Assembly (NCBI GenBank): GCA_017743475.1
Contig: JAGHYV010000031.1
Span: 1-51,243 of the forward strand
Length of the DNA stretch: 51,243 nt
From: Roseiflexus sp.
Lineage (GTDB): Bacteria; Chloroflexota; Chloroflexia; Chloroflexales; Roseiflexaceae
Reading direction: 5' to 3'
Shown: in pieces, positions 4,812 through 41,015 of the stretch
How positions within the stretch are numbered: position 1 is the stretch's first letter
How the letters are laid out: each line of letters opens with the position of its first letter
The notes under the pieces: generated by a model
Database searches by the model: none
Told to the model about the DNA's origin: nothing
The model's input: the letters and a program-made list of their open reading frames with translations, nothing else
Program-made: the position numbers and the translations under genes

Positions 4812-4859
4812 ACCAACGTTGAACATTGAACGTTCAACGTTGAACGTTCAACGTTGGTT
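4811..4859. repeat. Palindromic heptanucleotide repeat between kinase and sigma genes
   Basis: A perfect 14-base inverted repeat (4811-4824 with 4846-4859) encloses 21 bases that contain a further palindrome, TTGAACGTTCAA. The histidine kinase stop codon (TGA, 4848-4850) is inside the element. It could act as an RNA hairpin ending the kinase transcript. Same family as the TTCAACG arrays elsewhere in the window. Confidence 0.85.
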
Positions 4860-7235
4860 AACGCTCACCGGATACCGGCTGACATCCCACGTTTCATCTG
4901 TTTCATCTTCCTTCAACGCCTTCTTCAACCTCAACCGCACCGTCGTTCCGCGCCCTGGTTGCGAGTCGATCGTCAAAGCAGCGCCGATCGTCCGTGCCCG
5001 CTCGTGCATCGAGAACAGTCCAAAATGATTCTTTTGCTCCGATTGATTGGGGTCAAACCCCCTTCCGTCGTCGGATACCTCGCATTCCCAGCCATGTTCA
5101 TCGGCGGCGATGGTCACCCGCAAAAGACGGGGATGGGCATGCTGCAACGCATTGACCACCGCCTGCTGAACGATCCGGTATGCCTGGCGTGCAGTCGTAT
5201 CGTGCAACGGATAGGCGACTCCGGCGCCGTTGATGATACATGGCACATTGTACAGGGCGCAGATTTCTTCGGTAAACGCCTGGATCGCCAGCCCCAAGCG
5301 GGTCGCACCGACAAGCGGCGGTTGCAGGCGGCGCATAATGGCACGCAACTCTTGCGCCGTTTTGATGGCGCGCTGCCGATATGTTTCACAGACACTGATG
5401 GTTTCGTCAACAGGATCGCCCGCCTGCACGCGACGCTGGATTTGCGCCAATCCCAGCGGAATGGCACACAAAAATGGCATGACGCCATCGTGAATTTCTT
5501 GCGCAATGCGCTCACGCTCCTGTTCCTGCGCAGCGATCATCAACGCCGGCACTGCCAGAAGACGCTGAATCTGCGCACGAATATGCATTGCATTCGCCAG
5601 CATGGTTGCGAGCAGTCCGATCAACCGTTCATCTTCCTCGTCGAACGGCTCCTGCGTGCTCCGCGAACCAACGTACAGCGTCCCCAGTTGTTCACCTTCA
5701 CTTATGAGGACACGAGTAATTGCAGGCGATCCAGGAAGGGAGAACGAAACTTCGCGTGCAGCGGATACGCGACGCATGTCTACCCCGGTTCCGGTTGCCA
5801 GCCATACTCGATCCGGCGTCAGCGCGGGATGCACCGCCGCCCAATCGCACATCACTGCCGTGTGCACTAGGGCTGCACCATGCTTTGCTGCATCTTCGAG
5901 GTTCGACACCTCGTTCATGCGGGTGGCAAAGTCGAGCGTTACCTGATAGTGATGGTGATGGCGCAAAAAGAAGCGTCGATACAAACGCCGAAATGGATTG
6001 TCGGTATGCCAGAAGACGGTCGTTGCGAACGTGGCGAACCACAGCGCCATAAACATGAGACCATCCACCGGCATGCGGATGATTCCGATCAGCACCACGA
6101 CCATCACAGCACACGCGACTGTTGCGCTGATATAGATCATCGCCAGGCTGTCCAGCACGCGACTGCGACTGGCAAAATGCTGGTAGCGCAGCATGACATA
6201 TGCGATACCGGAGCAGAGGATGACCAGAAAGAAGAGAAATGGCTGGAACGACGTGCCCAAAGGTGCACGGTACGTCAGCAGATAGTATGCGCTTGCCAGG
6301 GTCAACGGTCCTGCGCCAATCCCCCACGACAGCAGTAACACCCGCATCTGGTCGGCTATTGCCCGGTCACCGCGCCATACCCACCATCCCGCACGCAGCA
6401 GGAATGATCCCAGTCCAATGAGCATGGTTATACCGTTGATCGTCGTCGCAATCCCCGGAGCGTCGCCGCGCCACGGACGCAGCAGCGGCACGAATGCCAG
6501 CATGCTATCCAGGTGCAGGATCATCGCCGTCAGACCGACAGGATGGAGCGCAAAGCGCAGGGGCGCAAACCGGGCCAGGGGACGAGGAGTGAGCAGCGCC
6601 AGATGGTAGAGGAACGGCCCGATCCAGGCCATGCTGATCACGATGGTGAAAGCGGTGTAATATCGGCCCTGTTCATCATTCAAGCCGTGATACAACCCAA
6701 CAATCGCCAGCGCCAGGGTAAGAAATAATGCAGCAGAAGTCTGGTTCACTTCAGCATGAGGTTGCGCCAGCAGCACAATGAGCGCCAGCATCCAGACGAA
6801 CAGGGCGATCGGCAGGATGCCAAACTGAAGCTGCAACACGTGCAGCCACGTTAACCGGAGCGCGGCAACTTGGACAGGAAATCGCTCAGCGCCACGACGC
6901 ACCTCCACATCAACCAGGTTTCTGCCATCCTTCGCATCAGCATAGCGCTCAACTTCGGACAGGGGCCAGTGGTAGGCTGAAATGCCATTAATCGTTTCGA
7001 TACAATCCCCGGTTTGCAGCGAACCATCAGCCATTGCGGGCCAGGAGGGCGGCGTGATTGGCGACACGGCATGGCAGCGAATCGCGTCCTGCCAGATAGG
7101 AAGGACGCCTATCGACGGTTTCCCGATGAGACTAAACGAACTGGAAAAACTGATCGCTCCAGCAATTATCGGCGCCACTGCAAAAATGAGCAGAATCGTC
7201 GCCTGCCAGGGGAGGTGTTGTCGTTGAAGGTGCAT
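4848..7235 (-). CDS. Membrane sensor histidine kinase (PDZ-like, polytopic TM, GAF, HisKA_3, HATPase)
   Basis: 795-residue NarL/DegS-group kinase. After an N-terminal membrane helix comes a PDZ-like domain (about 50-110; LQTGDCIETINGISAYHWP), then about nine hydrophobic segments (110-425) and a GAF domain (about 445-565). The dimerisation/phospho-acceptor helix has ERERIAQEIHDGVMPFL (His near 590), and the C-terminal ATPase domain has the N box VVNALQHAHP and G box DDGRGFDP. ATG 7235 is preferred over 7289 because the membrane helix begins right after it; neither has a good ribosome site. The stop codon is supplied by the heptanucleotide repeat. No LuxR-type regulator is adjacent, so the partner is unknown. 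Confidence 0.88.
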   Translation of the reverse strand: MHLQRQHLPWQATILLIFAVAPIIAGAISFSSSFSLIGKPSIGVLPIWQDAIRCHAVSPITPPSWPAMADGSLQTGDCIETINGISAYHWPLSEVERYADAKDGRNLVDVEVRRGAERFPVQVAALRLTWLHVLQLQFGILPIALFVWMLALIVLLAQPHAEVNQTSAALFLTLALAIVGLYHGLNDEQGRYYTAFTIVISMAWIGPFLYHLALLTPRPLARFAPLRFALHPVGLTAMILHLDSMLAFVPLLRPWRGDAPGIATTINGITMLIGLGSFLLRAGWWVWRGDRAIADQMRVLLLSWGIGAGPLTLASAYYLLTYRAPLGTSFQPFLFFLVILCSGIAYVMLRYQHFASRSRVLDSLAMIYISATVACAVMVVVLIGIIRMPVDGLMFMALWFATFATTVFWHTDNPFRRLYRRFFLRHHHHYQVTLDFATRMNEVSNLEDAAKHGAALVHTAVMCDWAAVHPALTPDRVWLATGTGVDMRRVSAAREVSFSLPGSPAITRVLISEGEQLGTLYVGSRSTQEPFDEEDERLIGLLATMLANAMHIRAQIQRLLAVPALMIAAQEQERERIAQEIHDGVMPFLCAIPLGLAQIQRRVQAGDPVDETISVCETYRQRAIKTAQELRAIMRRLQPPLVGATRLGLAIQAFTEEICALYNVPCIINGAGVAYPLHDTTARQAYRIVQQAVVNALQHAHPRLLRVTIAADEHGWECEVSDDGRGFDPNQSEQKNHFGLFSMHERARTIGAALTIDSQPGRGTTVRLRLKKALKEDETDETWDVSRYPVSVNQR

Positions 7236-7289
7236 AGCAGGTAGGGTGTCTTGCTGATGATACACTGTAACGGAAGATACCAGTTGCAA

Positions 7290-8102
7290 TTGCGCGCATC
7301 ACATCTGTGTTGAACAGGATGCTGTTCAGACCAGGCGCACCGTTCAGGCGAACTACGCCGTAGCGCTTTGTCGCGCAGACTGCGAAACGGGCAATCCTCT
7401 GCCAGGTGCCAACGATGACGCGCTCCTTCCCGAAACGCCTGCGCCTCCTGGCGCGGGCGCCAATTATTGACACTCACATGCCGTTGCGGGAGAGTGAGAG
7501 TATGACTCCCGCACGTCGACATTTGACTGGAGATGGCTATACGCTGTACCTGCACGTTAGCGTGGAAGCGACGTTGTATGCAGGGGCAGATTCGCTGAGA
7601 CTGGTTTGTGACCAGAGCAACAGGTCGTGAGTTGAGTTGTGCGTACATTCCAGTATATGTTGGGCAACGTGCCGGCAAGATAATTACACCGCTACTGGTA
7701 TTGCTGAAAGGAGGTCAAATACGCAGACGCCTTATAATTCCAGTATACTATGCCCACCGAACCAGGTTAGTAACAAGTACTCTACTGACGGGCGCATGAC
7801 CAGCAAGAGGCTGCTTATGACCCGGAAGAAGATCAAACCAGAGACGATTCCTCCTCATGGAGCAAAGAATGCGAAACGCAGGCAACTCCTGGGCGCCACG
7901 CTGCAATCGTTTCGACAGAACATGTAATCATCTTCATGCTGTGGACAATACGATCTGCCATGGTTCGAACACGTCATGGATATGGTGCTATATCGACCAA
8001 TGTACGAAGAAAAGCCTGCCTCGCAGTTGACGCAGCATTTACCATGTTTATGTCACTCAATACGGGAAATGGCACCAGAAGGGTACTTTACCGAATCTGA
8101 CG
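7290..8102. other. Long region without a convincing gene; possible decayed ORF
   Basis: About 0.8 kb. A hairpin TGCGGGAG/CTCCCGCA lies at 7485-7492 and 7506-7513. Two -10-like boxes (TATAAT 7733-7738, TATACT 7744-7749) lack clear -35 boxes. One plus-strand frame reads from ATG 7796, is interrupted by TAA at 7925 and continues through a protein-like stretch (LPWFEHVMDMVLYRP, then REMAPEGYFTESDDER) to a stop near 8111. I recognise no family. This could be the remnant of a small gene or chance. Confidence 0.35.
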
Positions 8103-9644
8103 ATGAACGGTGATCAGGAGATCAGGAATCTGTCATGCATCATCCTGATACACCTTATCAACCTGGTGAATATGCGATTAAGAATACGCTTTTCCTCCTT
8201 CCCGGTTGCCAAAGGTGACCGTACTGCCGCTCTGATCGGACGCAGTCCGCTGATAGCGGCGCTAGCTGCAGTCCTAGTTGGTCTTGCCGGAGGCGCGATA
8301 GTGGCATTCGCGCCGTTCTGGCTTGGATTTGCAGCCCTGGCAGCCCTGGCAGGAGTCTACGCCATTCTGGTCGATACCCGTGTCGGGCTTGCGACCGTCA
8401 TCGGGATCGCAACAATCGTGCCCTTCGCAACGCTGCCGTTCCGGGCGGTGATCACGCCAACCCTGCTGACCCTGGCGCTTGCGGCGTTGATGGGGGTCTG
8501 GATCCTGCGGATGCTGGTGCGCGGTGATGAGCGGGTGACGATCACACCGATTGGGATGGCGCTGATCGGCTTTCTGGGCATCACCCTGTTTGCTTTCGTG
8601 CTTGGCTCAAATGCCAGTCCGGAACCGTCGCTATTGCACAACTACGTCAAATTCGCGATGGCGACTCTGTTCTTCTTCAGCGTCGTCAACTGCGTGCGCG
8701 ACCGGCAAACAGCGCGCTGGGTCTTCCGTTTTCTCATTATCGGTGCGGCGCTTTCGGCAATGATCGCGCTGGTGTTGTATGTCATTCCCGACCAGCTGGC
8801 GCTTCAGATTCTGGTGTCGTTTGGGCGTATTGGCTACCCCACCGAGGGACGCGTTCTGCGCTATGTTGAAGACGATCCGAATGGATTGATGCGCGCGATC
8901 GGTCTGTCGGTCGATCCCAACAGTTTTGGCGGCATGCTGGCGCTGATCGGGGCGCTGGCAGTGACGCAACTGGTCAGTGAACATCCGGCGCTGCCGCGAC
9001 GCATGCTGCTCGTTGCTACAGGCATTATTCTGCTGGCGCTGTTCCTGACGTATTCGCGTGCGGCGCTGGGTGGTATGATCGTCGCCGCTATGTATGTGGC
9101 AACGCTGCGTTACCGACGGCTCTGGTGGGTTATTCTGGCAGCTGGCGCCCTGGCTGCCATTCTATTCATCGGGCTTGGGGTCGGTGAGCGTTTCGTCGAG
9201 CGGATCGTCGAAGGGGTGCAGTTCCGCGACCGAGCGAACCAGATGCGCCTGGCGGAATACCAGAATGCTATCGCCATTATTCAGGCATATCCGGTGTTCG
9301 GCATCGGCTTCGGTCAGGCGCCGGAGATCGACCTAGTTGCAGGAGTATCGAGCATCTATCTGGCAATTGCTCAACGCACTGGTCTCGTTGGTCTGACCAC
9401 ATTTCTGGGAATTATGATCTGGTTTTTCGTGCGAAACTGGCGCGCTTTGCGTACTGCCAGCGTGATTGGCGACGAAGAACGGGTCGCATGGCTAGTGTCG
9501 TTGCAGGCGGCGCTGGCTGCTGCGCTGGCAGTAGGGCTGCTCGATCACTACTTCTTCAATATCGAGTTCAGCCATATGAGTGCGTTGCTTTGGGGAACGG
9601 TAGGGCTGGCAGTGGCAATTGAGGAAATGGAGGGTAAAGGTTGA
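8103..9644 (+). CDS. O-antigen ligase/polymerase-like membrane protein
   Basis: 513 residues (490 if ATG 8172 is used), with about 11-12 hydrophobic segments. It matches the Wzy/WaaL (O-antigen ligase) superfamily, which polymerises or ligates lipid-linked glycans on the outer face of the membrane. Supporting marks are the long periplasmic-type loop around residues 330-420 with READ-like GVQFRDRANQMRLAEYQNA and PVFGIGFGQAPEI, resembling the Wzy_C signature (G-x-G-x-G region), and alternating short loops. Neither start has a strong ribosome site. Its TGA stop (9642-9644) is the GGTTGA of the following repeat. It is isolated from the glycan operons at 29-49 kb but probably serves the same surface polymer. 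Confidence 0.8.
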   Translation: MNGDQEIRNLSCIILIHLINLVNMRLRIRFSSFPVAKGDRTAALIGRSPLIAALAAVLVGLAGGAIVAFAPFWLGFAALAALAGVYAILVDTRVGLATVIGIATIVPFATLPFRAVITPTLLTLALAALMGVWILRMLVRGDERVTITPIGMALIGFLGITLFAFVLGSNASPEPSLLHNYVKFAMATLFFFSVVNCVRDRQTARWVFRFLIIGAALSAMIALVLYVIPDQLALQILVSFGRIGYPTEGRVLRYVEDDPNGLMRAIGLSVDPNSFGGMLALIGALAVTQLVSEHPALPRRMLLVATGIILLALFLTYSRAALGGMIVAAMYVATLRYRRLWWVILAAGALAAILFIGLGVGERFVERIVEGVQFRDRANQMRLAEYQNAIAIIQAYPVFGIGFGQAPEIDLVAGVSSIYLAIAQRTGLVGLTTFLGIMIWFFVRNWRALRTASVIGDEERVAWLVSLQAALAAALAVGLLDHYFFNIEFSHMSALLWGTVGLAVAIEEMEGKG

Positions 9645-9730
9645 AGGTTAGAAGGTGGAAGGTTGCAGGTGGAAGGTGGAAGTTTGGGCGTTGAACATTC
9701 AACGTTTAACCTTCCACTTCAACGTTCAAC
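9636..9730. repeat. Heptanucleotide repeat array
   Basis: Degenerate GGTTGAA/GGTGGAA units on the left invert to TTCAACG/CTTCCAC units on the right, with a GTTGAACATTCAAC palindrome in the middle, so the array can fold. It covers the O-antigen-ligase stop codon and ends just before the folD -10. Confidence 0.8.
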
Positions 9731-9733
9731 TCA

Positions 9734-9739
9734 TATAAT
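9734..9739 (+). promoter_or_regulatory. -10 box of folD
   Basis: TATAAT 36 bases before the folD start, directly after the repeat array. The corresponding -35 position (CTTCCA) is poor. As with the sigma-factor gene, a repeat occupies the -35 side. Confidence 0.5.
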
Positions 9740-9775
9740 ACTCACGTCGCAGCACGACAACAGGGAGGCGTATCT

Positions 9776-10642
9776 ATGACTGCTACCATACTCGACGGAC
9801 GGGCACTTGCAAAAACGCTTCGCGAAGAGCTGCGTGCCGATACTCAGGCATTCATTCAGAACAACGGCATCGCCCCTTCGCTTGCCGTTGTCAAAATTGC
9901 AGGCGATCCCGCCTCTGACCGCTATACACGCACCATCCGCAAAGGATGTGAGGAAATCGGCATAACCTTCACCGAACACACTCTGCCGCCCGAAACGACC
10001 CAGGCGATGCTCGAAGAAACGATCAGCGCACTAAGTTTCGACCGAACAATCCATGGCATCCTGTTGCACCTGCCGCTGCCACCGGGACTGGACTCTGCCC
10101 GCGCTATTGCGCAGATCGATCCGACCAAGGATGTTGATGGCGTGCATCCATACAACGCAGGACTCCTCGCCATGGGGCGACCGGGACTGATTCCCAACAC
10201 TCCGGCTGGTGGTATGGAACTGCTGCTGCGCAATAACATTCCACTCAAAGGGCAGCACGCAACGGTTGTCGGGCGCAGTGTCGTGGTGGGGAAGCCTATG
10301 GCACTGCTGCTGCTGAATGAGCATGCCACCGTCACCATCGCCCATTCGCGCACAAAAGACCTGGCAGCAGTCGTGCGCGGCGCCGACATTGTTGTTGCTG
10401 CCACCGGCAAGCCCGGCCTGATCACCGGCGATATGATCAAACCCGGCGCGGTTGTTGTCGATTTTGGCGTCAATGTGCTCGAAGACGGGCGCGTAGTTGG
10501 GGACGTAGACTTTGACAGTGTTGTCAGGGTTGCTTCTGCTATTACGCCGGTTCCTGGCGGTACGGGACCGGTGACCAACGTGATGTTATTGCGGAATGTT
10601 CTGCGCGCAGCACAACAGCAGATGGCGCGCCATCATCATTGA
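9776..10642 (+). CDS. folD: FolD: methylenetetrahydrofolate dehydrogenase / cyclohydrolase, altered catalytic residues
   Basis: 288-residue one-carbon enzyme, expected to oxidise 5,10-methylene-THF to 10-formyl-THF in two steps. The family frame is clear: KDVDGVHPYN, the Rossmann VVGRSVVVGKPM and C-terminal ITPVPGGTGPVT. The catalytic lysine normally in Y-x3-K-x-K reads YTRTIRK, so it is Ile, and the usual Gln of GILVQLPLP reads GILLHLPLP, so it is His. The triad aspartate in KDVDG remains. By analogy with human MTHFD1 Lys56/Gln100 the cyclohydrolase step should be affected. GGAGG (9764-9768) lies eight bases before ATG 9776. It ends in three His codons. Confidence 0.92.
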   Translation: MTATILDGRALAKTLREELRADTQAFIQNNGIAPSLAVVKIAGDPASDRYTRTIRKGCEEIGITFTEHTLPPETTQAMLEETISALSFDRTIHGILLHLPLPPGLDSARAIAQIDPTKDVDGVHPYNAGLLAMGRPGLIPNTPAGGMELLLRNNIPLKGQHATVVGRSVVVGKPMALLLLNEHATVTIAHSRTKDLAAVVRGADIVVAATGKPGLITGDMIKPGAVVVDFGVNVLEDGRVVGDVDFDSVVRVASAITPVPGGTGPVTNVMLLRNVLRAAQQQMARHHH

Positions 10643-10829
10643 GATGCGCGCCGTCGGTGCTGCTGTAATGCTCGCCGCGACGCCAGGATAGGAAGCAGGC
10701 ATCTGTAGGAACGGGCAGCGCACTACTGCGTTCGCCCTCAGTAATGCAACGCAACCAGCAAGCGCGCTACACTGCTACCCCTCCTGTCAGAACCCGCAGT
10801 CTGTGTGCTATAATGTATGTTGGGAACAG
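10643..10829. other. Intergenic region with -10 box for tRNA-Gln
   Basis: No gene is seen. TATAAT at 10809-10814 precedes the tRNA by 15 bases, with CTGTCA (10784-10789) as a weak -35 at 19-base spacing. A 14-bp palindrome GATGGCGCGCCATC (10621-10634) lies in the last codons of folD. Confidence 0.5.
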
Positions 10830-10903
10830 TGCCGGGTTGTGTAATGGCAGCACGGCGGACTTTGGATCCGTCTGTCCAGGTTCGAATCCTGGCCCGGCAG
10901 CCA
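10830..10903 (+). tRNA. tRNA-Gln (anticodon TTG)
   Basis: The cloverleaf folds cleanly. The acceptor TGCCGGG pairs with CCCGGCA, and the D arm is GTG...CAC. The anticodon stem GCGGA/TCCGT encloses CTTTGGA (anticodon TTG, reading CAA). The T arm CCAGG/CCTGG encloses TTCGAAT. The discriminator is G and CCA is encoded (10901-10903). The first acceptor pair T-A is usual for tRNA-Gln. glmU starts 52 bases downstream and may be co-transcribed. Confidence 0.95.
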
Positions 10904-10954
10904 CGGCGATGGGACAAGCGCGGGGGATCACCTTGTCGCCCCTTCTTCATAACA

Positions 10955-11998
10955 GTGCGATTGGGAGTTGTTGTTCTTGCTGCCGGTGAAGGCACCCGTA
11001 TGCGGTCGGCGCTGCCTAAAGTGCTGCACTCACTCTGCGGTCGGCCGCTGCTTGGTCACATCCTGGCAGCCGTCGATATGCTGCAACCGGCGGTTAGCGC
11101 AATCGTGCTTGCCCCAGATACGCTCGATACAGTGCGCACCCGCTTTGGCGACCGATATTGCTATGTTGTGCAGGCCGAGCGGCTGGGAACAGGGCACGCA
11201 ACGCTCCAGGCGCGCTTGAACCTGCGCCATCAGTGTGATGATGTACTGGTACTGGTCGGAGATGCGCCGCTAATCCGTAGCGCCACCCTGCAACGCCTCG
11301 TAGCGCTGCGCCGTGAATGCGGTGCTTTGGTCGCCTTCCTGAGTTTCATTGCAGAACCGCCAACCGGATATGGTCGGGTGGTGCGGAATGCGGAAGGCAA
11401 TGTGATCGCCATTGTCGAAGAACGCGACGCCACCGATGCCCAACGCGCTATCACCGAAGTCAACAGCGGAATCCTCTGCTTCGACGCGGAATGGATGTGG
11501 CCCGCGCTTGACCGTGTGCAACGCAGCCCGGTGAAAGGTGAGTATTACCTGACTGACCTGATTGCGCTAGCAATTGCCGATGGCGGCGTCGGTGCAGTGC
11601 AGGCGCTCATCGCAACCGACCCGACCGAAGCGTTCGGGGTGAATGACCGCGTGCAACTGGCGCAGGCGGAGCGCATTCTACGCACCCGGCTGCTCGACAC
11701 GCTGATGCGCAGCGGCGTGACCGTCATTGATCCTGCGGCAACGTATGTGGATGTTGATGTGGTCGTCGGGCAGGATACGACGCTTCTGCCGGGAACGATG
11801 CTGCGCGGGGCTACCCGAGTGGGAGCAGGCTGTATTATTGGTCCCCATACATCGCTGATTGATACGATCGTTGCTGATGGTGCACATGTGCGCTACACGC
11901 TTGCCGAAGGAGTTGTGATACCGGCGCATGCTCTCATTGGTCCGTTTGTCCATCTGCGTGGCGCGCAGGATGGCACCGGCACATTCTATCAGGCATAA
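10955..11998 (+). CDS. glmU: GlmU-like UDP-GlcNAc pyrophosphorylase lacking the acetyltransferase end
   Basis: 347 residues against about 450 in normal GlmU. The uridyltransferase domain (residues 1 to about 230) is complete: LAAGEGTRMRSALPKVL, the QAERLGTGHA uridine loop and EVNSGI. It would join GlcNAc-1-P and UTP. About 90 residues of left-handed beta-helix follow, then the protein stops at IGPFVHLRGAQDGTG, just where the acetyltransferase active-site region (Lys351, His363, Tyr366 and Asn386 in E. coli) would begin. So it probably lacks GlcN-1-P acetyltransferase activity. GTG 10955 is chosen because earlier in-frame starts lie inside the tRNA. prs follows after five bases. Confidence 0.82.
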   Translation: MRLGVVVLAAGEGTRMRSALPKVLHSLCGRPLLGHILAAVDMLQPAVSAIVLAPDTLDTVRTRFGDRYCYVVQAERLGTGHATLQARLNLRHQCDDVLVLVGDAPLIRSATLQRLVALRRECGALVAFLSFIAEPPTGYGRVVRNAEGNVIAIVEERDATDAQRAITEVNSGILCFDAEWMWPALDRVQRSPVKGEYYLTDLIALAIADGGVGAVQALIATDPTEAFGVNDRVQLAQAERILRTRLLDTLMRSGVTVIDPAATYVDVDVVVGQDTTLLPGTMLRGATRVGAGCIIGPHTSLIDTIVADGAHVRYTLAEGVVIPAHALIGPFVHLRGAQDGTGTFYQA

Positions 11999-12003
11999 CA
12001 CAT

Positions 12004-12942
12004 ATGGAAGGGCGTCTTCAGATCTTTAGCGGCAATGCGAACCGGCCTCTGGCGCAAGAGATCGCGTCATACCTGAACATCAACCTCGGTCGCGCCACGG
12101 TCGGCACATTCAAAAACGGCGAAACGCGCGTCAAGGTCGAGGAGAATGTGCGCGGCTCCGATGTGTTCGTCGTCCAGCCAACCTGCACTCCAGTCAACCA
12201 CAACCTGATGGAGTTGTTAATCCTGATCGATGCGTTGCGGCGTGCATCGGCAGCACGGGTGACGGCGGTCATTCCCTACTACGGGTATGCCAAGCAGGAA
12301 AAGAAAACTACGGGTCGTGAGCCGATCTCGGCAAAACTGGTCGCCAACCTGATCCGCACCGCTGGCGCTGATCGAGTGCTGACGATGGATCTGCATGCGC
12401 CAGCGATCGAGGGGTTTTTCGATATTCCGGTCGATCATCTGCAAGCCGGTCCTATTCTCGCCGAGCATATTCGGAGCATGAACCTGCCACGCCTGGTGGT
12501 AGTCTCTCCTGATGCTGGCGGCGTAGGGCGAGCGAATAGTTTTCGTGAGCGGATCGGCGCCGGGCTGGCGATCATTGCTAAGCAACGCCCGCAACCCGAC
12601 GTAGCTGAGATGCTTGATATGGTCGGCGATGTGGAAGGGAAGACAGCAGTAATTGTAGATGACATGATCTCAACCGGGGGAACGCTGGCAGAAGCAGCGC
12701 GCGTTTTGCGTGAACGTGGCGCGAAGGCGGTGTACGCCTGCGCTACTCATGGCATTTTTGCTGGCGATGCCACTGAGATTATTGCCCGATCAACGCTGGT
12801 TGAAACTATCGTCACAAACACTATTCCACTCCCCGAAGGATGCCGTGAAGCGCGCATTCGCGCGATCAGCGTTGCACCCCTGTTTGCCGAAGCCATTATG
12901 CGCATTCATAAGGATCTGTCGTTGAGCGCACTGTTCTCGTGA
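12004..12942 (+). CDS. prs: Ribose-phosphate pyrophosphokinase (PRPP synthetase)
   Basis: 312-residue class I PRPP synthetase, making PRPP from ribose-5-phosphate and ATP for nucleotide, His and Trp synthesis. Seen are the flexible loop IPYYGYAKQEKKTTGREPI, the metal-binding MDLHAPAIEGFFDIP and the PRPP-binding VIVDDMISTGGTL near residue 215. The length is normal. It begins five bases after the truncated glmU, so the two are probably one transcript, as in many bacteria where glmU and prs are neighbours. Confidence 0.96.
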   Translation: MEGRLQIFSGNANRPLAQEIASYLNINLGRATVGTFKNGETRVKVEENVRGSDVFVVQPTCTPVNHNLMELLILIDALRRASAARVTAVIPYYGYAKQEKKTTGREPISAKLVANLIRTAGADRVLTMDLHAPAIEGFFDIPVDHLQAGPILAEHIRSMNLPRLVVVSPDAGGVGRANSFRERIGAGLAIIAKQRPQPDVAEMLDMVGDVEGKTAVIVDDMISTGGTLAEAARVLRERGAKAVYACATHGIFAGDATEIIARSTLVETIVTNTIPLPEGCREARIRAISVAPLFAEAIMRIHKDLSLSALFS

Positions 12943-12985
12943 GAAAACCCGACATCGCACGACCGCACGGTTGAGGATTAGCACG

Positions 12986-14305
12986 TTGGACGTTGAAACT
13001 GGCCTGGTTCTGGCAGGTATTATCGGCTGTCTCCTGCTCCTGGCATTCACGTCAGCGGTCGATACTGCAATGACCGCGATTGGACGCCATCGCCTCGGGT
13101 TGCTTCACGAGAGCGACAGGCAGCGTGCACAATTGATCGACCGCCTGCTTACCGAACCGTACCGCTTCAAAGCGACCATTCTGCTTCTCAACAGTGCTGC
13201 GACCATTGCTGCGACTGCACTGATGTTGCGCTTATGCGCTGGTCAACCGCTTCAGTGGCAGATCGGTGCACTTGGCGGATTATTGTTCCTTATTCTGATC
13301 TTCGCCACAGCATTGCCCAAGGCGCTGGCAATCAGCAATCCCACCCATGCTGCGCAGGCGCTTGCCGGTCCGATGGCGCTCAGCGCCCGCGTGCTGGCGC
13401 CGTTGATCTGGGTGGTCGAACTGCTTACCCGCCCGTTCATCCGCGTCGCCAGCGGTCAGGCGGCGCCACAGATGCCGCTGGTGACCGAAGAAGAACTGCG
13501 TCTGCTGGTGAATGTCGGCGAAGAAGAAGGGTTGATCGAGCCGGATGAGCGGGAAATGATCGAGGGCATCTTTTCCTTCGGCGATACAACCGTGCGCGAA
13601 GTTATGATCCCACGGGTCGATATTGTCGCACTCGAGGAAACGGCGTCCATCGATGAGGCGCTGAATGTGATCATCGCCAAAGGACATTCGCGTATTCCGG
13701 TATACCGCGAGACCATCGATCATATTGTGGGGATTCTGTACGCCAAAGATCTGCTGCTCTGGTTGCGCTCCGGGCAGCGAGAGGCGTCAATAGGATCGCT
13801 GCTGCGAACCGCGCATTTCGTCCCCGATACGATGAAAGTCGATGCCCTGCTCAAGGATTTGCAAGCGCGCAAAGTGCACCTGGCGATCGTCGTCGATGAG
13901 TACGGCGGCACTGCCGGGCTGGTTACCATCGAGGATGTGATCGAAGAGATCGTCGGGGAAATTCAGGATGAGTACGACGTCGATGAGCAACCGATCACAG
14001 AACTTGGCGCTGGCGATCTGGAGGTGGATGCACGCGTTCCGATTGATGACATTAATGATCTGACCGGTCTGCACCTGACGTCGGAAGAGTCAGATCGGAT
14101 CGGCGGGATTGTGTTCGAGCGCCTGGGTCGTGTGCCAAAGGTTGGCGACACGGTACACCTGGATGGCGATGTGACCATCACAGTGCTTTCGATGGATGGG
14201 TTACGCCTGCGGCGACTGCGTCTGCAATACCGTTTACCGCAGGAAAACGAAATTCACGCTGTGCGCAGCAATGCGGATCAGGAACATGCACACCCTAACA
14301 CCTGA
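12986..14305 (+). CDS. CNNM/CorC (HlyC/CorC) family transporter with CBS pair
   Basis: 439-residue membrane protein of the CNNM/CorC group, associated with Mg2+/Co2+ homeostasis. The N-terminal DUF21 domain (about 5-185) has four hydrophobic segments. A CBS pair follows (about 205-330; VREVMIPRVDIVAL, GHSRIPVYRETIDHIVGILY and VDEYGGTAGLVTIEDVIEE), then the C-terminal CorC_HlyC domain (about 345-425). The start is read as TTG 12986, eight bases after GAGGA; an in-frame TTG at 12971 would only lengthen it by five residues. The end overlaps cdd by 20 bases. Confidence 0.9.
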   Translation: MDVETGLVLAGIIGCLLLLAFTSAVDTAMTAIGRHRLGLLHESDRQRAQLIDRLLTEPYRFKATILLLNSAATIAATALMLRLCAGQPLQWQIGALGGLLFLILIFATALPKALAISNPTHAAQALAGPMALSARVLAPLIWVVELLTRPFIRVASGQAAPQMPLVTEEELRLLVNVGEEEGLIEPDEREMIEGIFSFGDTTVREVMIPRVDIVALEETASIDEALNVIIAKGHSRIPVYRETIDHIVGILYAKDLLLWLRSGQREASIGSLLRTAHFVPDTMKVDALLKDLQARKVHLAIVVDEYGGTAGLVTIEDVIEEIVGEIQDEYDVDEQPITELGAGDLEVDARVPIDDINDLTGLHLTSEESDRIGGIVFERLGRVPKVGDTVHLDGDVTITVLSMDGLRLRRLRLQYRLPQENEIHAVRSNADQEHAHPNT

Positions 14306-14696
14306 TCTTGCCAACCTCCTCACCGTCGCTGCCACTGCACGCCAACGAGCGTACTGCCCATATTCACGGTTCGCCGTTGGCGCTGCGGCACTGACAGCGT
14401 CGGGAGTGACGTTTCCCGGATGTAACATCGAAAACGCTGCGTACCCATCGACAATCTGCGCCGAACGGGTGGCGTTGTTCAACGCCTACGCTGCTGGCGA
14501 ACGCGAGATCGTTGCGCTGGCAGTAATCGCCGATACGCCTGGACCGGTGAGTCCCTGTGGCGGATGCCGCCAGGTGATCCTCGAACTTGCACCGCGCGCT
14601 ATCGTGGTCATGGCAAACCTGGGTGGTGCGTGGCGCGTGGCATCGATCGGCGAGTTGCTGCCTGATGGATTCTCCTCTACCAGTTTCGACGTATAA
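14286..14696 (+). CDS. cdd: Cytidine deaminase
   Basis: 136-residue tetrameric-type cytidine deaminase, converting cytidine/deoxycytidine to uridine forms for pyrimidine salvage. The zinc site is complete: CAE (in STICAERVALF) and PCGGCRQ. The N-terminal CPYSRFAVGAA binds substrate. ATG 14286 lies inside the end of the CNNM gene (20-base overlap in another frame), so the genes are probably translationally coupled. Seven bases separate its stop from that of the convergent gene. Confidence 0.95.
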   Translation: MHTLTPDLANLLTVAATARQRAYCPYSRFAVGAAALTASGVTFPGCNIENAAYPSTICAERVALFNAYAAGEREIVALAVIADTPGPVSPCGGCRQVILELAPRAIVVMANLGGAWRVASIGELLPDGFSSTSFDV

Positions 14697-14703
14697 CCTG
14701 CCG

Positions 14704-17202: not shown

Positions 17203-17245
17203 TGACGACCTCGCCTTTGATGTGTCAGTTTTTATGCATGGCATC

Positions 17246-17251
17246 AGTATA
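17246..17251 (-). promoter_or_regulatory. -10 box upstream of the guanylyltransferase gene
   Basis: TATACT on the minus strand, 43 bases before the start codon. The -35 region (TGGTTT at 17-base spacing) is weak and lies next to the GAGAACT array. Confidence 0.4.
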
Positions 17252-17280
17252 GCATGGGGAAGTGCTGCAAACCAGAAGCA

Positions 17281-17384
17281 GAGACTAAGAACTGAGAAGC
17301 GGGAACGGAGAATTGAGAACGGAGAATTGAGAACCGAGAACTGAGGATTGGGGACTGAGAATTGAGAACTGACAGAGAAACCGA
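17281..17384. repeat. GAGAACT-type heptanucleotide array
   Basis: Tandem 7-base units, variants of GAGAACT/GAGAATT/GAGAACC, between the guanylyltransferase start and the phasin end. The same family recurs at 43006-43132, before asnB. Confidence 0.85.
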
Positions 17385-17443
17385 GAGTGCGACAGCGCCT
17401 CCCGGTTTCCGGTTATCCGTACTGATTTGGCGTAAGACTTCGG

Positions 17444-17908: not shown

Positions 17909-17913
17909 ACTGC

Positions 17914-29032: not shown

Positions 29033-29079
29033 TAACGTTTGCTGTGCAGTCTGAAAGCGCGATGAATATCAACGCCGAG

Positions 29080-29109
29080 CAACGCTGCGGCTAGGGCGCA
29101 GCAGCGTTG
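29080..29109. terminator. Hairpin between convergent TPR and DUF2079 genes
   Basis: CAACGCTGC (29080-29088) pairs perfectly with GCAGCGTTG (29101-29109) around a 12-base loop. It lies between convergent stops and has no T run. Confidence 0.45.
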
Positions 29110-29127
29110 TGCCCTGCCAGAGTGCGA

Positions 29128-31125: not shown

Positions 31126-31134
31126 GAGAGCTTG

Positions 31135-35008: not shown

Positions 35009-36108
35009 TCCATTATCCGTCGATACACATCCTCATACCGCCGTGTCACCTCTTCCCAGGCAAAGGCAGCGATCCGCGCGCGCGCCCGGACGCTCAGTTC
35101 GGCACGCAGGTCGGCATTCTGCATCAGACGCTCCAGGGCTTCACGGAGCGCCGGTACATCCTGCGGCGGAACCAGGATGCCAGCATCACCGACAACTTCG
35201 GGCATACCGCTGACATTGGCGGTGATGATGGCGCATCCGCCCGCCAGCGCTTCGAGCAGCACAACCGGGAAGTTATCGTTGATCGAGGGGAAAACAAAGA
35301 TCGCGCTGGTGGCGTACAGTTCTTCCAGCGGGGCGCCTTTGATAAAACCGCGCCAGTCGATCGGCACACCCAGGCGTTGCGCCAGCGCCTGCAATTCCTC
35401 GCGCATCGGTCCGTCTCCGGCGATGGTCACCTCCCATCCGTTGAGTGGCAGTCCTGCCAGCGCCTCGATAAGATACTGCGCTCCTTTGCGCGGAAACAGG
35501 CGACTGACGAACAGGATGCGCTGTTTTCGTTCTCCAGTTGGTGGCGGAGGCGGATCGAAGCCGTAGGGGATGATCTCGACCGACACTGTACACGTCTGTT
35601 GTATGAGTCCACGTAGATAGTGTGATGGTGAAACGATCATATCAGCGCTGCGCGCAACCAGGCGCCACGCTGGAGCGATCACCCGATGAGCGCGGATGAA
35701 GCGATCCGGATTGTACCCTGGCACATCCGATCCGTGGGCGGTGATCACCAGTGGTAAACCGCTTACCTGACGCACAACTGCTGCCAGAATACCGGTCGGC
35801 ACAATGAAATGTGCATGCACCACATCGTAGCGTCGGTGTCGCAGCAACGCCAGCGCTGGCGGCAACGCAGCTGCGACATAACTCAAAAGTTCGACCGCTT
35901 CGGCGCGCACTGCTGATCGTCGCAACGCCGGCACGCGGATCACCCGCACGTTATCGAACGTTTCGACCGGTGGCAGACGACGGAACCCCATCGTGACCAC
36001 ATCGATCTCATGCCCGGCGTTTGCGAGATGCAGACACAGATCGCGCGTCACCGGGCTGGCGCCCCCGCCAAGCGGCGGATACTCGTAATTGAGCATCAGG
36101 ATGCGCAT
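35005..36108 (-). CDS. GT4 glycosyltransferase
   Basis: 367-residue GT-B enzyme. The N-terminal acceptor domain opens MRILMLNYEYPPLGGG, and the donor domain begins near 185 with RILFVSRLFPRKGAQYLIEAL. The E-x7-E motif region reads DNFPVVLLEALAGG, so the first Glu appears to be Asp. ATG 36108, with AGGA nearby, overlaps the end of the upstream GT87 gene by 13 bases. The donor is probably a GDP- or UDP-sugar, used on the cytoplasmic side to extend a lipid-linked or surface glycan. Confidence 0.9.
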   Translation of the reverse strand: MRILMLNYEYPPLGGGASPVTRDLCLHLANAGHEIDVVTMGFRRLPPVETFDNVRVIRVPALRRSAVRAEAVELLSYVAAALPPALALLRHRRYDVVHAHFIVPTGILAAVVRQVSGLPLVITAHGSDVPGYNPDRFIRAHRVIAPAWRLVARSADMIVSPSHYLRGLIQQTCTVSVEIIPYGFDPPPPPTGERKQRILFVSRLFPRKGAQYLIEALAGLPLNGWEVTIAGDGPMREELQALAQRLGVPIDWRGFIKGAPLEELYATSAIFVFPSINDNFPVVLLEALAGGCAIITANVSGMPEVVGDAGILVPPQDVPALREALERLMQNADLRAELSVRARARIAAFAWEEVTRRYEDVYRRIME

Positions 36109-37184
36109 GATACGTTCCTGTTCTCTGGAACATGTCGCCCGATAACTGCCAGACCAGCGACCAGTGGTAGATAGAAGCCGAGAGAACGGGCAAGAACGAT
36201 GTCCGCATCTGCACTGATAAGCGGAAGTGCCAGCACGCTCCAACTTGCTGCAATCGTCAGCGCAGCCAACCGCAGAGCACGCATCGTCAACACTGTAAGA
36301 GGCAGCAGCAGCACTGCGTGATTGTAGAAACTGCGAGTCGGCAACACGATCAAGAGAACTACGACGACAGCAGCAAGCAGCAGTGGTGCATCACGCCGTC
36401 TCCAGGCAAGCGCCGCAACAATCATCACCAGTATGGCTGATAGCATACCAACAAACGAAAGTGCGTCGATCTGGTTCTGATCCTCGGCGTCATAGGCGCG
36501 TATCTGCTCCATCCATGCCAGCACCCATCCGGGCGCTAGCATCTGTGTTCCTACCCAGAAGATGAACAATCCACCCGCTAGTCCCAACCACCAGCGAGCA
36601 GGAACATTCAGCTGCCATGCGTAGGCAAGTAAGCCTGCCAGAAGCGCGATACCCACATGTGGCTTGAGCAACGTGAGTGATGCCACAGCACCAGAGAGCA
36701 GCCAGCGTGATCGATGCAACCAGCGCAAACTGAGCAGGGTCCAGAGCAGGAGCAACGGACCCCATTGCCCCTCCTCCAGCGACGCCCAGAGCGGGAAGTA
36801 GGCGAGCATCACTCCCGCAAACCGTGGTTCGGGCGTATCCCGAAATGCGAACGGGAGAGCAAACACGACTGATAGACTCATAAGCGCCCACACGGTTGAC
36901 GCCCCAGCGAGCGGCAGCAACGCAAGAGGAACACAGATGAGTATGGCAGGAAAGGGGTACGCAAAACCGGAACCGGTTCCCAGCAGACGATCACCCGTTG
37001 CACCGTAGGGGTCTACTCCGGATAGCCAGAGACGTGCTGCCAGCCACCAGACCTGGAGGTCGGGCGTGGTATAGACGGTGGCATAAGCATGGTACATAAG
37101 TGCAATAAGGCATACGCCTGAGACAAACATCGCCAATGCCTGCCAGCGTCTTCCGGCGTGCCAGGGTCGCCATGTGCTATCCAT
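36096..37184 (-). CDS. GT87-like (DUF2029) membrane glycosyltransferase
   Basis: 362 residues, about ten hydrophobic segments. First-loop signature TTPDLQVWWLAARLWLSGVDPYG, then FAYPFPAILICVPLALLP and the TLLKPHVGIALLAGLLAY segment, matching the GT87 pattern. It would use a polyprenyl-phosphate sugar on the outer membrane face. ATG 37184 overlaps the GT2 stop by 8 bases, with GAGG upstream. It is placed directly behind the gene for the likely donor synthase. Confidence 0.82.
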   Translation of the reverse strand: MDSTWRPWHAGRRWQALAMFVSGVCLIALMYHAYATVYTTPDLQVWWLAARLWLSGVDPYGATGDRLLGTGSGFAYPFPAILICVPLALLPLAGASTVWALMSLSVVFALPFAFRDTPEPRFAGVMLAYFPLWASLEEGQWGPLLLLWTLLSLRWLHRSRWLLSGAVASLTLLKPHVGIALLAGLLAYAWQLNVPARWWLGLAGGLFIFWVGTQMLAPGWVLAWMEQIRAYDAEDQNQIDALSFVGMLSAILVMIVAALAWRRRDAPLLLAAVVVVLLIVLPTRSFYNHAVLLLPLTVLTMRALRLAALTIAASWSVLALPLISADADIVLARSLGFYLPLVAGLAVIGRHVPENRNVSCAS

Positions 37185-38193
37185 CGCCGTTCACCTCTTC
37201 GCGCACGACGTAGATTGGCTTGGCTTGCGTTTCGTAGTAGGTGCGCACCACCAGTTCGCCGATCAGCCCCAGACTGATGAACTGTACCCCCAGCACGATC
37301 AGCAGCACCGCCAGAAGCAGCAGTGGTCGGTCAGCAATAGCGGTACCATACGCCAGTTTGATCCACGTCAGATACGCGCCGATTGCAAGACCTGCGCCGC
37401 CAGCAAGTATGCCAAGCAAGCCGAAGATCTGCATTGGTCGGGTGCCGTAACTGAGCAAAAATCGCACGGTCACCAGGTCGAGCAGGACGCGCAGGGTACG
37501 GTTGATGCCATACTTCGATTTGCCAAAACGACGCGGCACGTGACGCACCGGTAGTTCGGTCACCGACACTCCCTGCCAGCTAGCGATTGCCGGGATGAAG
37601 CGGTGCAACTCGCCATAGAGACGGATGCTGCGCACCACGTCGCGGCGGTACGCTTTGAGTGAACAACCGTAATCGTGCAGATGGACGCCAGTTGCCCACG
37701 AGATCAGGCGATTGGCGATCATCGACGGCAGTCGCCGGTTGAGGAACGGATCGCGGCGACGCTCGCGCCATCCGCTCACAACATCGTATCCTTCCTCGAT
37801 CTTTGCGAGCAACGCGGCAATATCTGCCGGATCGTTCTGCAGATCCGCATCAATCGTCACCACCACATCGCCGCGCGCCCGGTCGAAACCTGCGGAGAAT
37901 GCCGCCGTTTGCCCGAAGTTGCGCCGGAAACGCACCACCCGCAACCGCCGGTCGCGCTGCGCCAGATCGCGTAACAGATCAAAACTCCGGTCACGGCTGC
38001 CATCATCGACGGCAATGATTTCGTAGGGGAGTCCGAGGTTCTCCAGTTCGACCGTCAACCGCCGGTAGAGATGCGGGATACTCTCTTCCTCGTTGTACAC
38101 TGGCACTACTACCGAGAGATGCGGAACAGGCGCATCGTCCGGTTCCTGCACCGCTCTGGCGTATGGTTCGTGGGTTGTGACCGTTTCTGTCAT
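37177..38193 (-). CDS. Polyprenyl-phosphate sugar synthase (GT2, DPM1/ArnC-like) with C-terminal TM pair
   Basis: 338 residues. The GT2 domain (about 20-245) has LSVVVPVYNEEESIPHLY, IIAVDDGSRDRSF, VVTIDADLQNDPADI (DxD) and SGWRERRRDPFLNR. Two hydrophobic hairpins (about 250-275, 285-315) anchor it. Such enzymes transfer mannose, glucose or aminosugars from NDP-sugar to polyprenyl phosphate, making the lipid donor for GT-C enzymes. It therefore probably supplies the GT87, DUF2079 and PIG-V-like proteins beside it. ATG 38193 is preferred; an in-frame TTG at 38238 lies in the repeat array. Confidence 0.9.
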   Translation of the reverse strand: MTETVTTHEPYARAVQEPDDAPVPHLSVVVPVYNEEESIPHLYRRLTVELENLGLPYEIIAVDDGSRDRSFDLLRDLAQRDRRLRVVRFRRNFGQTAAFSAGFDRARGDVVVTIDADLQNDPADIAALLAKIEEGYDVVSGWRERRRDPFLNRRLPSMIANRLISWATGVHLHDYGCSLKAYRRDVVRSIRLYGELHRFIPAIASWQGVSVTELPVRHVPRRFGKSKYGINRTLRVLLDLVTVRFLLSYGTRPMQIFGLLGILAGGAGLAIGAYLTWIKLAYGTAIADRPLLLLAVLLIVLGVQFISLGLIGELVVRTYYETQAKPIYVVREEVNGDG

Positions 38194-38220
38194 AGATTCT
38201 GGCGACCCGTCTGCGCTTAC

Positions 38221-38304
38221 TGAACGTTCAACCTTCAACCTTCAACTTTCAACCTTCAACTTTCAACCTTCAACCCTCAACCTTCAACCTTCGACCTTCA
38301 ACCC
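38221..38304. repeat. TTCAACC-type heptanucleotide array
   Basis: About twelve 7-base units (TTCAACC, TTCAACT, TTCGACC) fill the gap between the PIG-V-like stop and the GT2 start. The array occupies the 5' side of the donor-synthase gene. Confidence 0.9.
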
Positions 38305-39553
38305 TTATGGCACAAACGCATTGCGCACATACATCGACGCGATCAGCGCCCACAGCAACGCATTGCAACCCAGCGTGAGCCACAGAACGACCGGCGACCG
38401 CGCCCATCGTGCCAGTTGAAAGAAGAGCGGAAAAATGATCGTGAACCGGCGAATAATCCCCATATAGGGCCACAATGGATAGACGATCGACAGGTTCAGC
38501 GCCGCCAGGGTCAGACTGTAGATCGCATAACTGCGTCGCACGCGCACGGCGGCTGCCAGGGTCAGCGCCAGCATGATCAGCATGACCAGGACGTTGAGAA
38601 GCAGGTAGAAATACGGTCGCTGACGCAACTGGTCAAGCGCATAGCCAAAATTGACCCAGGGCCAGCTAAACGTTTCTCCCCACACATTAGCATACGATGG
38701 CGTCACTAGGAGAGCACTGATGAGTGTGTCGGGCCTGTACCACAAAAATGCAACATCGCCGAGAGTTGCACGGTATACGATCCATCCCAGGAGCGCCAGC
38801 GGCGTTAGCGCCAGCCCAGCCAGTGGACCAGACAGCACGCGCAACCCATGGCTGCGCGCGGCATCTCTGTGCTGTTGCCATAGTTCCCACAGCAACGGCA
38901 GCAGCACCACCACTCCGGGTTGTTTGGTCAACGCCGCAGCGCCTCCAGCGGCGCCAGCAAGCCACCAGCGCCCGCGTCGCGCCGCGTACAACGCTGCAAC
39001 GATGCTCAACAACAGGAGGGATTCGGTGTACGGCAGCAGGAATGAAAAACCGAGCGGACTGCCGATCAGGAACAGCGTTGTGCGCTGCGCCGTGGCTTCA
39101 TCGTCATCAAGAGCGACGAGACGGTAGAGCAGCGCAAGCATCGTCACACAGCACACGTGCGCGATCAACCAGGCTGCCAGCAGGTATTCACCCCCGAACA
39201 TTCGCCCCAGGAGACCGGTCAGCAACGGTATAGAGAGGGTGAAATGCAGCGTCGCCCGGACGATGCCCATAACCGTGCTGTGCAATACCAATATACCAGA
39301 TGACGTCATAGCGCAAAAGCGGAAGCAGCACCACACGTTCCAGCCACGTCCACAGCGGCGCCGACGGGGGCCAGACCGCGACCGAGGCTTCTTCCAACCA
39401 CTTCGGGTAGACCGATGAAACCCAGGCATTCCAGATCACGAAGAGTGCACAATAGCCAGCATATAGCCGCAGCGCCCAGCGCCACGCCATTGCGGGCGTC
39501 TGCGCAGTCTGCGCAACAGATCGATCAATCCCGATGTCGGTCGTGACCCCCAT
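38305..39553 (-). pseudogene. PIG-V-like GT-C mannosyltransferase gene with an apparent frameshift
   Basis: The 5' frame (ATG 39553; an in-frame start at 39640 is possible) encodes RYDVIWYIGIAQHGYG...DAAFHPLY. The conserved continuation PLLTGLLGRMFGGEYLL and 300 further residues with about eight membrane segments lie in a second frame, to 38305. Removing one base from TATACCG near 39229-39232 restores LYPLLTGL, the sequence expected for the family. PIG-V/GT76-type enzymes use polyprenyl-phosphate mannose outside the membrane. A recent one-base insertion or a sequence error is likely; no slippery site is seen. Confidence 0.78.
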
Positions 39554-39931
39554 CAGAGCATGCTCACTCCTGAGGTTGACTGTGATCAGGAATCGTACAT
39601 CGGGGCGCAGAGGCGTAGGGATGTCGTGGTTTCGCACCAACCACCAGACTATTCACCATGTGAAGGCACGTCCCAGCGCTCCACCTGCAAGCGCTACACT
39701 GACGTCTTCTCTGCCGCCCCCATTCCTTCTACCGCTCGTTGCAGTTTCTACCTTCAGTATACCGTTGTTGCATCTGGAGAAGAGTCGCAGAATTGCATCA
39801 ATCCGTATGCAAAACCGCCATCATTGAAGGCGCTGCGGCAGCGTCTGCGCGGGAGTCACACGCTGCACTCCGTCGCGGTGGAGGTTCCGGCAGCGAGTCT
39901 GCGAGGGAATGTCGTTCTGCAACCGGATCGA
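39554..39931. other. Intergenic region between PIG-V-like gene and HepT remnant
   Basis: No gene is supported. A minus-strand TATACT (39756-39761) may be the -10 of the glycan operon, with no good -35. Short GC-rich self-complementary bits occur near 39836. Confidence 0.35.
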
Positions 39932-40337
39932 TCACAGGAACCGTACGAATATACGCTGGAATGTTTCAAGATCGTCAATATTTTCCTGCAAGACCCGAAA
40001 AACAATGCTTCTATCGATCTTTAGATTGTCGTGGACGAGAATATTGCGAAAACCGATCATCTTCAGGTTTCCTTCTGGGAGGCGTCTATCAATCCACCTT
40101 CACGTAATCGATGAGGGATATCGCTATACCAATATTTCCCAGCCCCGATTCGGCCACAACGTGATTGCCCAGATCGTTGATCGGTTCGATAGCCAGTTGA
40201 AGAAAGCGCTCTACACTCCCGTATCGCTCCGGGTTACTGACAAACTCATCATACGAGTACTTTTGCAACTGTCGGAGAATAGCCAGATACTCATTCAGCT
40301 TCTCTATCCTCTTGCGGATGACTTCGGGTCTGACCAT
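39932..40337 (-). pseudogene. HepT (HEPN, DUF86) toxin gene with two frameshifts
   Basis: The 5' part from ATG 40337 reads VRPEVIRKRIEKLNEYL...AIEPINDLGNHVVAE, a typical HepT N-terminal half. A frame change near 40128-40135 gives YSDIPHRLREGGLIDASQKET. A second near 40063-40068 gives MIGFRNILVHDNLKID and runs to the TGA at 39932. The RNase motif R-N-x3-H is preserved as RNILVH. The following position, normally Tyr (the residue AMPylated by MntA), is Asn. Two frameshifts make a functional toxin very unlikely. It overlaps the antitoxin gene by 47 bases. Confidence 0.85.
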
Positions 40338-40737
40338 GCAAGATCCTCTGTTTATACGCCTGTCGCTGGACATCCAGGTATGGCCGGAAATCCAGGAACT
40401 GACGCACGACTCTGGAAAAATACGATCCCCGATCAAAGTCTTCCGTCTGATAGATCAACCGGTTATGGCGCACCACCTCGTGCTTCAACACGATATTATC
40501 AGTGTCGAGGATGACCAGATCAACCCGACAGAACCCTGCGCGCGCCAGATCGGTCAGAATATCGAGGCGCGGCAACTTGCCCGCACCCGGTCGCGGCACT
40601 ATTGCCAGATCGAGGTCGCTCTCTGCGTGAAGCCTGCCAGTGACTGCTGAACCAAACAGGTAGACTGCCTGAATATCCGGGTATGTTCTGAAGATGTCAG
40701 ACAATCGTTCTAGTTCGGGAAACATATCTGGTTTCAT
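40291..40737 (-). CDS. MntA-like nucleotidyltransferase antitoxin
   Basis: 148-residue minimal nucleotidyltransferase with the signature GSAVTGRLHAESDLD (G-S-x10-D-x-D) near residues 29-43. In HepT/MntA systems it AMPylates the HEPN toxin on a tyrosine and so neutralises it. This gene is intact, while its partner downstream is frameshifted. The C-terminal 30 residues extend across the toxin start. No clear ribosome site is seen before ATG 40737; the 40-base leader, including the start codon, is duplicated 101 bases upstream. Confidence 0.85.
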   Translation of the reverse strand: MKPDMFPELERLSDIFRTYPDIQAVYLFGSAVTGRLHAESDLDLAIVPRPGAGKLPRLDILTDLARAGFCRVDLVILDTDNIVLKHEVVRHNRLIYQTEDFDRGSYFSRVVRQFLDFRPYLDVQRQAYKQRILHGQTRSHPQEDREAE

Positions 40738-40878
40738 ACGCGCACGGGAGAGAACACACAGTCACCAAAACGTTCAAGGTTCGACGTTCCAACGTTCCAA
40801 CGTTCAACGTTCAAACGTTCATCATTAACTGGTTTCATACGCACACGGGAGAGAACACACCGACATCAAAACGTTCAA
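40728..40878. repeat. Direct duplication of the mntA start region
   Basis: Two 50-base copies, 40728-40777 and 40829-40878, 101 bases apart with 4 mismatches. Each contains CTGGTTTCATACG (the antitoxin start on the minus strand) and GGGAGAGAACACAC. Heptanucleotide units fill the gap. Confidence 0.85.
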
Positions 40879-41015
40879 CGCCCAACCTTCAACGTTCAAC
40901 ATTCCAACATTCAACGGTCCAACGTTCAACGCCCAGCGCCCAACCTTCAACATTCCAACGTTCAACCTTCAACGTTCCAACGTTCAACCTTCAACCCTTC
41001 AACCCTTCAACCTTC
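40770..41015. repeat. Large TTCAACG-type heptanucleotide array
   Basis: The longest array of the window: about 245 bases of TTCAACG/TTCCAAC/TTCAACC variants. Its right end supplies the asnB stop codon (41007-41009). No gene is seen in 40738-41006. Confidence 0.9.

Follow-up and report, generated by a model that had tools for sequence, protein, structure and literature searches.

Heptamer repeat arrays of Roseiflexus commonly begin at the stop codon of the preceding gene, with the purine-rich strand as the coding strand

Contig JAGHYV010000031.1 of a draft genome of Roseiflexus, a genus of hot-spring bacteria (assembly GCA_017743475.1), was analyzed over its full 51,243 nt, referred to below as the window; it corresponds to contig C184 of the 4.97-Mb draft genome G000. 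It carries several tandem arrays of a 7-nt unit, GTTGAAG or GTTGAAC, at the 3' ends of genes. In the Roseiflexus genomes compared here, heptamer arrays (GTTGAAG/C, GAGGCGA, and others) commonly have a native stop codon as their 5' boundary, and their purine-rich strand is the coding strand. As judged from sequence comparison, we give a probability of roughly 0.5 to directional growth of the repeats where the transcript is no longer translated, from the stop codon onward, as the origin of this arrangement. A preliminary description of the window had reported that three unrelated genes, encoding a sensor histidine kinase-like protein, an O-antigen-ligase-like membrane protein, and an asparagine synthase-like protein (asnB), terminate in the TGA of the first GTTGAA unit of an array. 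The stop codon lies inside a GTTGAA unit at all three genes, the last codons being CGT TGA in the kinase and GGT TGA in the two others (Table 1). In asnB, however, a degenerate unit, GATGAAG, is located directly 5' of the stop unit, which is therefore not the first in a strict sense.

The placement of arrays was analyzed in four genomes, G000, G003, G005, and G001, the last being a single contig of 5,801,598 bases that we take to be Roseiflexus sp. RS-1. The unbiased RS-1 set comprises 40 evenly spaced 20-kb stretches (800 kb). Additional stretches around listed arrays in the four genomes are targeted and so do not form a random sample; the unbiased set agrees with them. A search with GTTGAANGTTGAA reports 59 to 741 matches per genome in all six genomes of the genus and nearly none with the reversed control pattern, while within the order the three-unit pattern returns strong sets in Roseiflexus and a few other genera. 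Tandem Repeats Finder analysis of the 800 kb of RS-1 locates one of 30 period-7 arrays mostly in coding sequence; the heptamer arrays are tandem repeats of a 7-nt unit and mainly intergenic. Sense arrays with their near edge between -20 and +11 of a stop codon, hereafter stop-anchored, were compared with a null of random position and orientation in the same intergenic regions (5,000 runs per set). There are 30 of them in RS-1 (null mean 5.9, maximum 15), 22 in G000 (4.7, maximum 13), and 15 in G003 and G005 together (4.2, maximum 12), the RS-1 and G000 counts being not fully independent because some loci are orthologous. The earlier proposal that arrays sit precisely at 3' ends is thus borne out genome-wide and across species, above chance. 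Stops lying in GTTGAA units also exceed chance, and the lack of any excess, which the preliminary description had named as speaking against it, is not what was found. For single GTTGAA hexamers the excess is mild, about twofold (16 of 361 TGA stops in the window and the 800-kb RS-1 set, against 8.7 expected under independent neighboring bases), so chance hexamers were rejected as the signal, which is carried by the tandem arrays. A tandem array supplies the stop codon of 5 of ~608 genes in the unbiased RS-1 set, from which roughly 40 array-supplied stops per genome can be extrapolated.

The geometry of the unit accounts for the way in which these stops are supplied. In the sense orientation, GTTGAAN offers TGA in all three frames and closes every frame within three units, while the antisense TTCAACN offers a stop in none. 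Stop supply is therefore a by-product of geometry for any array that adjoins the end of a gene, and requires no stop targeting. The TAACTGA repeats close all frames likewise in one orientation and none in the other, with a maximal gene overlap of 18 nt (MacGregor 2015, PMC4679880). Sense stop-to-array distances peak at -19, -12, and -5, corresponding to the TGA of units 3, 2, and 1, and from +1 to +11, where the arrays follow a native TAA, TAG, or TGA. With 10, 21, and 13 arrays at -5, -12, and -19, respectively, the three phases do not differ significantly from a uniform distribution (p about 0.1, by hand), and a preference for the first unit was rejected. Any open frame that enters a sense array is expected to yield such distances, which alone do not prove anchoring; the evidence for anchoring is therefore provided by orthologue ends, by arrays located wholly past the stop, and by convergent gene pairs.

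If we assume that arrays land anywhere and in any orientation, and that only the tolerated orientation persists, no directional process is required. The frame geometry fits this explanation, as do the gene overlaps of mainly 5, 12, or 19 nt and the orientation of the arrays inside genes, 12 of 13 of which are antisense, the orientation open in all frames (they encode, for example, STFNLQPSTFN peptides, and the single sense case is a two-unit doublet); the same logic has been published for the TAACTGA repeats (PMC4679880). However, it leaves unexplained the sense bias of arrays lying wholly past a conserved native stop. It does not account either for the convergent pairs, in which 25 of 25 arrays are closer to the stop of their sense gene, the opposite stop being equally available. 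Moreover, GAGGCRN arrays with no GTTGAA array within 200 nt are equally biased, with 17 sense and no antisense arrays at -25 to +30 of the stop, and 13 of these 17 have no stop in any frame. The convergent pairs and the stop-free family together imply that the rule cannot be a reading-frame filter alone, and survival of the tolerated orientation, already weakened as an explanation, appears rather unlikely. In co-directional regions, 94 arrays are sense and 19 antisense. A general purine bias after stops was ruled out, since array-free 3' flanks have a purine fraction of 0.511 (standard error 0.009); the polarity thus belongs to the arrays. The GGTTCTC arrays are located just 5' of start codons, 28 of them within 30 nt, with the pyrimidine strand as the coding strand. 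Arrays of GGTTCTC/GGTTCTT end at most a few bases from starts, often preceded in their intergenic region by GTTGAA arrays.

The 3' ends of array-bearing genes were compared with those of their orthologues from as many as four other genomes (24 queries, 3 of them with no orthologue available). Where the array is absent or degenerate, most orthologues terminate at the same position or very close to it (FVP*, VRL/VRM*, EGI*, ASA*/AMA*, DVN*, and EDR*). For FVP*, EGI*, ASA*/AMA*, DVN*, and EDR*, the native stop is kept in array-free species and the array lies directly 3' of it. Arrays therefore mostly abut native ends, and replace the last codons only sometimes. The kinase is such a case, its C-terminus reading ...PVSVNQR* as compared with ...PVSVENVEG* in the RS-1 orthologue. 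In the L167/L171 pair, the frame ends about 30 nt inside the array owing to a 5-nt gap. Array-supplied stops generally shift the end by a few residues, leaving VEG* or VER* tails, and occasionally by about ten (L171); small shifts in annotated C-termini are thereby accounted for. The C-termini of the ligase-like orthologues from five genomes lie only a few residues apart, and the asnB orthologues end in WLRVWGDEG*, WLRVWRH*, and WLRVWGR*. The main wording of the preliminary description, an invasion that replaced native C-termini, consequently stands for the array-coded tails of the kinase and L167/L171 and for the VEG*/VER* ends, i.e., for the last few codons in a minority of genes. It does not stand for most genes, whose array-free orthologues often terminate at the very same residue, the outcome named beforehand as speaking against it; as a general account, it is highly improbable.

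Alignments of RS-1 with G000 report arrays usually at the same site with a different copy number. The gene of L130, which ends in DVN*, illustrates a further level of variation: the repeat right past its TGA consists of GTTGAAG units in RS-1 and of GAACTGAGAACC units in G005, and in G003 it opens with GAGGCGAG and continues with AGAACC units. The stop anchoring, the sense polarity, the convergent pairs, the native stops kept without arrays, the bias of the stop-free family, the antisense orientation inside genes, the lack of purine bias in array-free flanks, and this variation in copy number and family all count in favor of directional growth. In this reading, arrays would arise and turn over in the part of the transcript that is free of ribosomes, from the stop codon on. 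There, we infer, the purine-rich nascent RNA would be bare and could hold an R-loop, which would let tandem units expand with one polarity. Upstream growth would be limited by selection on the protein, and downstream growth by the promoter or start of the next gene. An array slipping a few codons into the gene would then end the protein in its first, second, or third unit, usually near the native end. It is possible, and we propose it tentatively, that the stop codon is a physical growth boundary, that the bare purine-rich transcript drives one-way expansion, and that different families alternate at the same site across species; if true, translation termination would shape genome sequence.

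Several observations weigh against directional growth. About 14% of the array-bearing regions (20/138) are divergent, with no 3' end adjoining, and the genes were called by a home-made in-frame hexamer model, for which the stretches themselves served as training data, rather than taken from curated annotation. Furthermore, some arrays at unrelated genes share a poorly periodic flank of 60-240 nt, which indicates that copying between loci also occurs. In G039 and G040, which belong to another family of the order, TTGAATG palindromes (TTGAATG...CATTCAA) are located between stop and start, often filling the interval between a gene's TAA and the next ATG (TAATGTTGAATG...CATTCAACATTATG). They display the same stop-side/start-side geometry as the Roseiflexus arrays, with complementary arms, and look like the result of element insertion rather than growth. 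The palindromes are found at loci L227, L235, L238, L240, and L243, around base 5000 of each; were they absent, stop and start would overlap in the junction TAATG. If the arrays were instead a mobile composite repeat, a kind of non-autonomous element moving from gene to gene by copying and inserting at their stop codons, this would explain the shared flanks, the exact stop-to-start fit of these palindromes in a related genus, and dispersed non-coding repeats of ~130 nt. The latter are found at several unrelated genes, each time with a GTTGAA array on either side (L156 4440-4600 and L181 5984-6115, with further loci at L184 2093-2268, L178 701-902, and L200 6107-6278). Most array pairs have only the heptamer in common, though, neither a target duplication nor an encoded enzyme was identified, and one stop can carry different heptamer families from species to species, so that a mobile element is improbable.

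The folding of two arrays also counts against growth. The kinase and ligase arrays contain antisense units and form long predicted hairpins in both species despite their altered sequence, with fold z-scores of -7.25 for the kinase array and -8.0 for its differently spelled RS-1 counterpart, and of -4.5 and -8.3, respectively, for the ligase pair. Some arrays may therefore be functional, and for these two a structural role is possible in addition. A selected function in the 3' untranslated region could be a one-way barrier to antisense transcription through the termination factor Rho, hairpin versions serving as terminators or stabilizers; a strand-specific role of this kind is the main functional rival to growth. 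The sense array is C-poor, while the antisense transcript would be C-rich, unstructured, and a good Rho loading site. Rho is encoded, and the antisense units (CTTCAAC) are C-rich and devoid of G. However, convergent regions are at most slightly enriched among array-bearing regions (25/138, against 61/410 of the intergenic regions of at least 30 nt in the unbiased sample), and copy number varies freely. The pure sense array at 38223-38303 returns no predicted structure (z 0.49), which rules out the hairpin as a general feature of the arrays, and an Rfam scan of the window reports no match at the arrays, the only hit being a tRNA. A pattern scan of positions 4600-10000 for intrinsic terminators, consisting of a G+C-rich hairpin and a T run, did not return any at the kinase or ligase arrays. 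Selection against Rho polarity was rejected as the sole cause, since it predicts no preference in convergent pairs, yet all of these favor the sense stop. Overall, a selected function is an unlikely origin of the arrangement.

Heptamer arrays resemble several known repeat systems. The heptanucleotide short tandemly repeated repetitive (STRR) sequences of heterocystous cyanobacteria are intergenic, fall into several families, and vary in copy number, as do the Roseiflexus arrays, although the unit sequences differ. The repetitive extragenic palindromic (REP) sequences and bacterial interspersed mosaic elements (BIMEs) of enterobacteria are longer imperfect palindromes, often located shortly past stop codons. 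The arrays share with them the position past stops and, for some, hairpins; however, most are direct repeats and do not possess a fixed-length imperfect palindrome in every copy. The closest published likeness concerns the TAACTGA heptamer direct repeats of marine Beggiatoaceae, Cyanobacteria, and Bacteroidetes, whose function is unknown (MacGregor 2015, PMC4679880). They too form intergenic 7-nt tandem arrays with stops in three frames in one orientation, may overlap a gene end, and occur inside genes mostly in the stop-free orientation. In contrast, the unit here is GTTGAAG/GTTGAAC, there are several families including a stop-free one with the same polarity, and GTTGAA arrays start at the stop of the upstream gene, only the GGTTCTC family being found near starts. 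Oligopurine/oligopyrimidine tracts have been reported to be over-represented in Roseiflexus and Chloroflexus (PMC4060949). The arrays, purine-rich on one strand, may contribute to that statistic; the relevant passages of that survey mention neither a placement of tracts at stop codons in these two genera nor heptamer arrays. A literature search found no paper dedicated to Roseiflexus heptamers, and nothing directly applicable was found in the literature on REP elements and R-loop expansion. The Roseiflexus arrays thus extend the known intergenic heptamer arrays, with the stop-anchored, sense-polarized rule as the new aspect. Although bacterial intergenic heptamer arrays have been catalogued for decades, there is no agreed account of where they start or in which direction they run. 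Several Roseiflexus families follow a strong rule: the array starts at a stop codon, and its purine strand is the coding one. This rule makes repeat growth coupled to transcription and translation, or a strand-specific 3' function, directly testable.

Within the window (Table 1), the start of asnB is probably the ATG at 43004 (protein MCGIYG...) rather than the TTG at 43187. This ATG adjoins the GGTTCTC array, so asnB is bracketed by arrays at its start and stop codons. At the 38305, 44261, and 43292 genes, the array lies after the stop rather than over it; the TAA of the 38305 gene is kept in RS-1 and G003, and G004 has a TGA at the same residue.

Table 1. Genes and heptamer arrays of the window.
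Feature	Position	Strand	Remarks
Sensor histidine kinase-like gene	4848..7289	-	stop TGA 4850-4848 in GTTGAAC unit; C-terminal residues array-coded
Mixed GTTGAAC/GTTCAAC heptamer array 3' of the kinase gene	4814..4856	-	reported by Tandem Repeats Finder; long hairpin
O-antigen-ligase-like membrane gene	8103..9644	+	stop TGA 9642-9644 in GGTTGAAGG
Degenerate GTTGAAG array, then TTCAAC units, between the ligase-like gene and folD	9637..9735	+	hairpin-forming
GTTGAAG array	38223..38303	-	starts 2 nt past TAA of the 38305 gene (TAA then GGGTTGAAGG)
GTTGAA(C/G) array, sense to asnB	40870..41016	-	overlaps the asnB stop
asnB (asparagine synthase-like)	41007..43004	-	stop TGA 41009-41007 in GAAGGTTGAAGG; likely ATG start 43004
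GGTTCTC array (second heptamer family, sense strand pyrimidine-rich)	43006..43132	-	ends 1 nt before the asnB ATG
GTTGAAG array	43183..43267	-	just past the stop of the 43292-43591 gene
GTTGAAG array	44183..44246	-	starts 19 nt past TAA of the 44261-45460 gene

Interleaved with the arrays 3' of asnB are two near-identical copies of CTGGTTTCATACGC(G/A)CACGGGAGAGAACACA, at 40724-40760 and 40829-40866. A TATAAT box is present directly past the arrays at 4800-4815 and 9730-9745, so these arrays end at the place where a promoter may begin; the first box precedes the gene 3' of the kinase (4164-4826, sigma-factor-like by eye) and the second precedes folD. At the right edge of the contig (51174-51243), a perfect 15-nt repeat is of the antisense, in-gene kind; in RS-1 the orthologous repeat is part of a gene, keeps the reading frame with its period of 15, and encodes PSHLQ repeats. 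Lastly, locus L106 of RS-1 contains a long predicted frame (10538-14593), a candidate gene with five antisense GTTGAA arrays coding for STFNVQPSTFN-type repeats.

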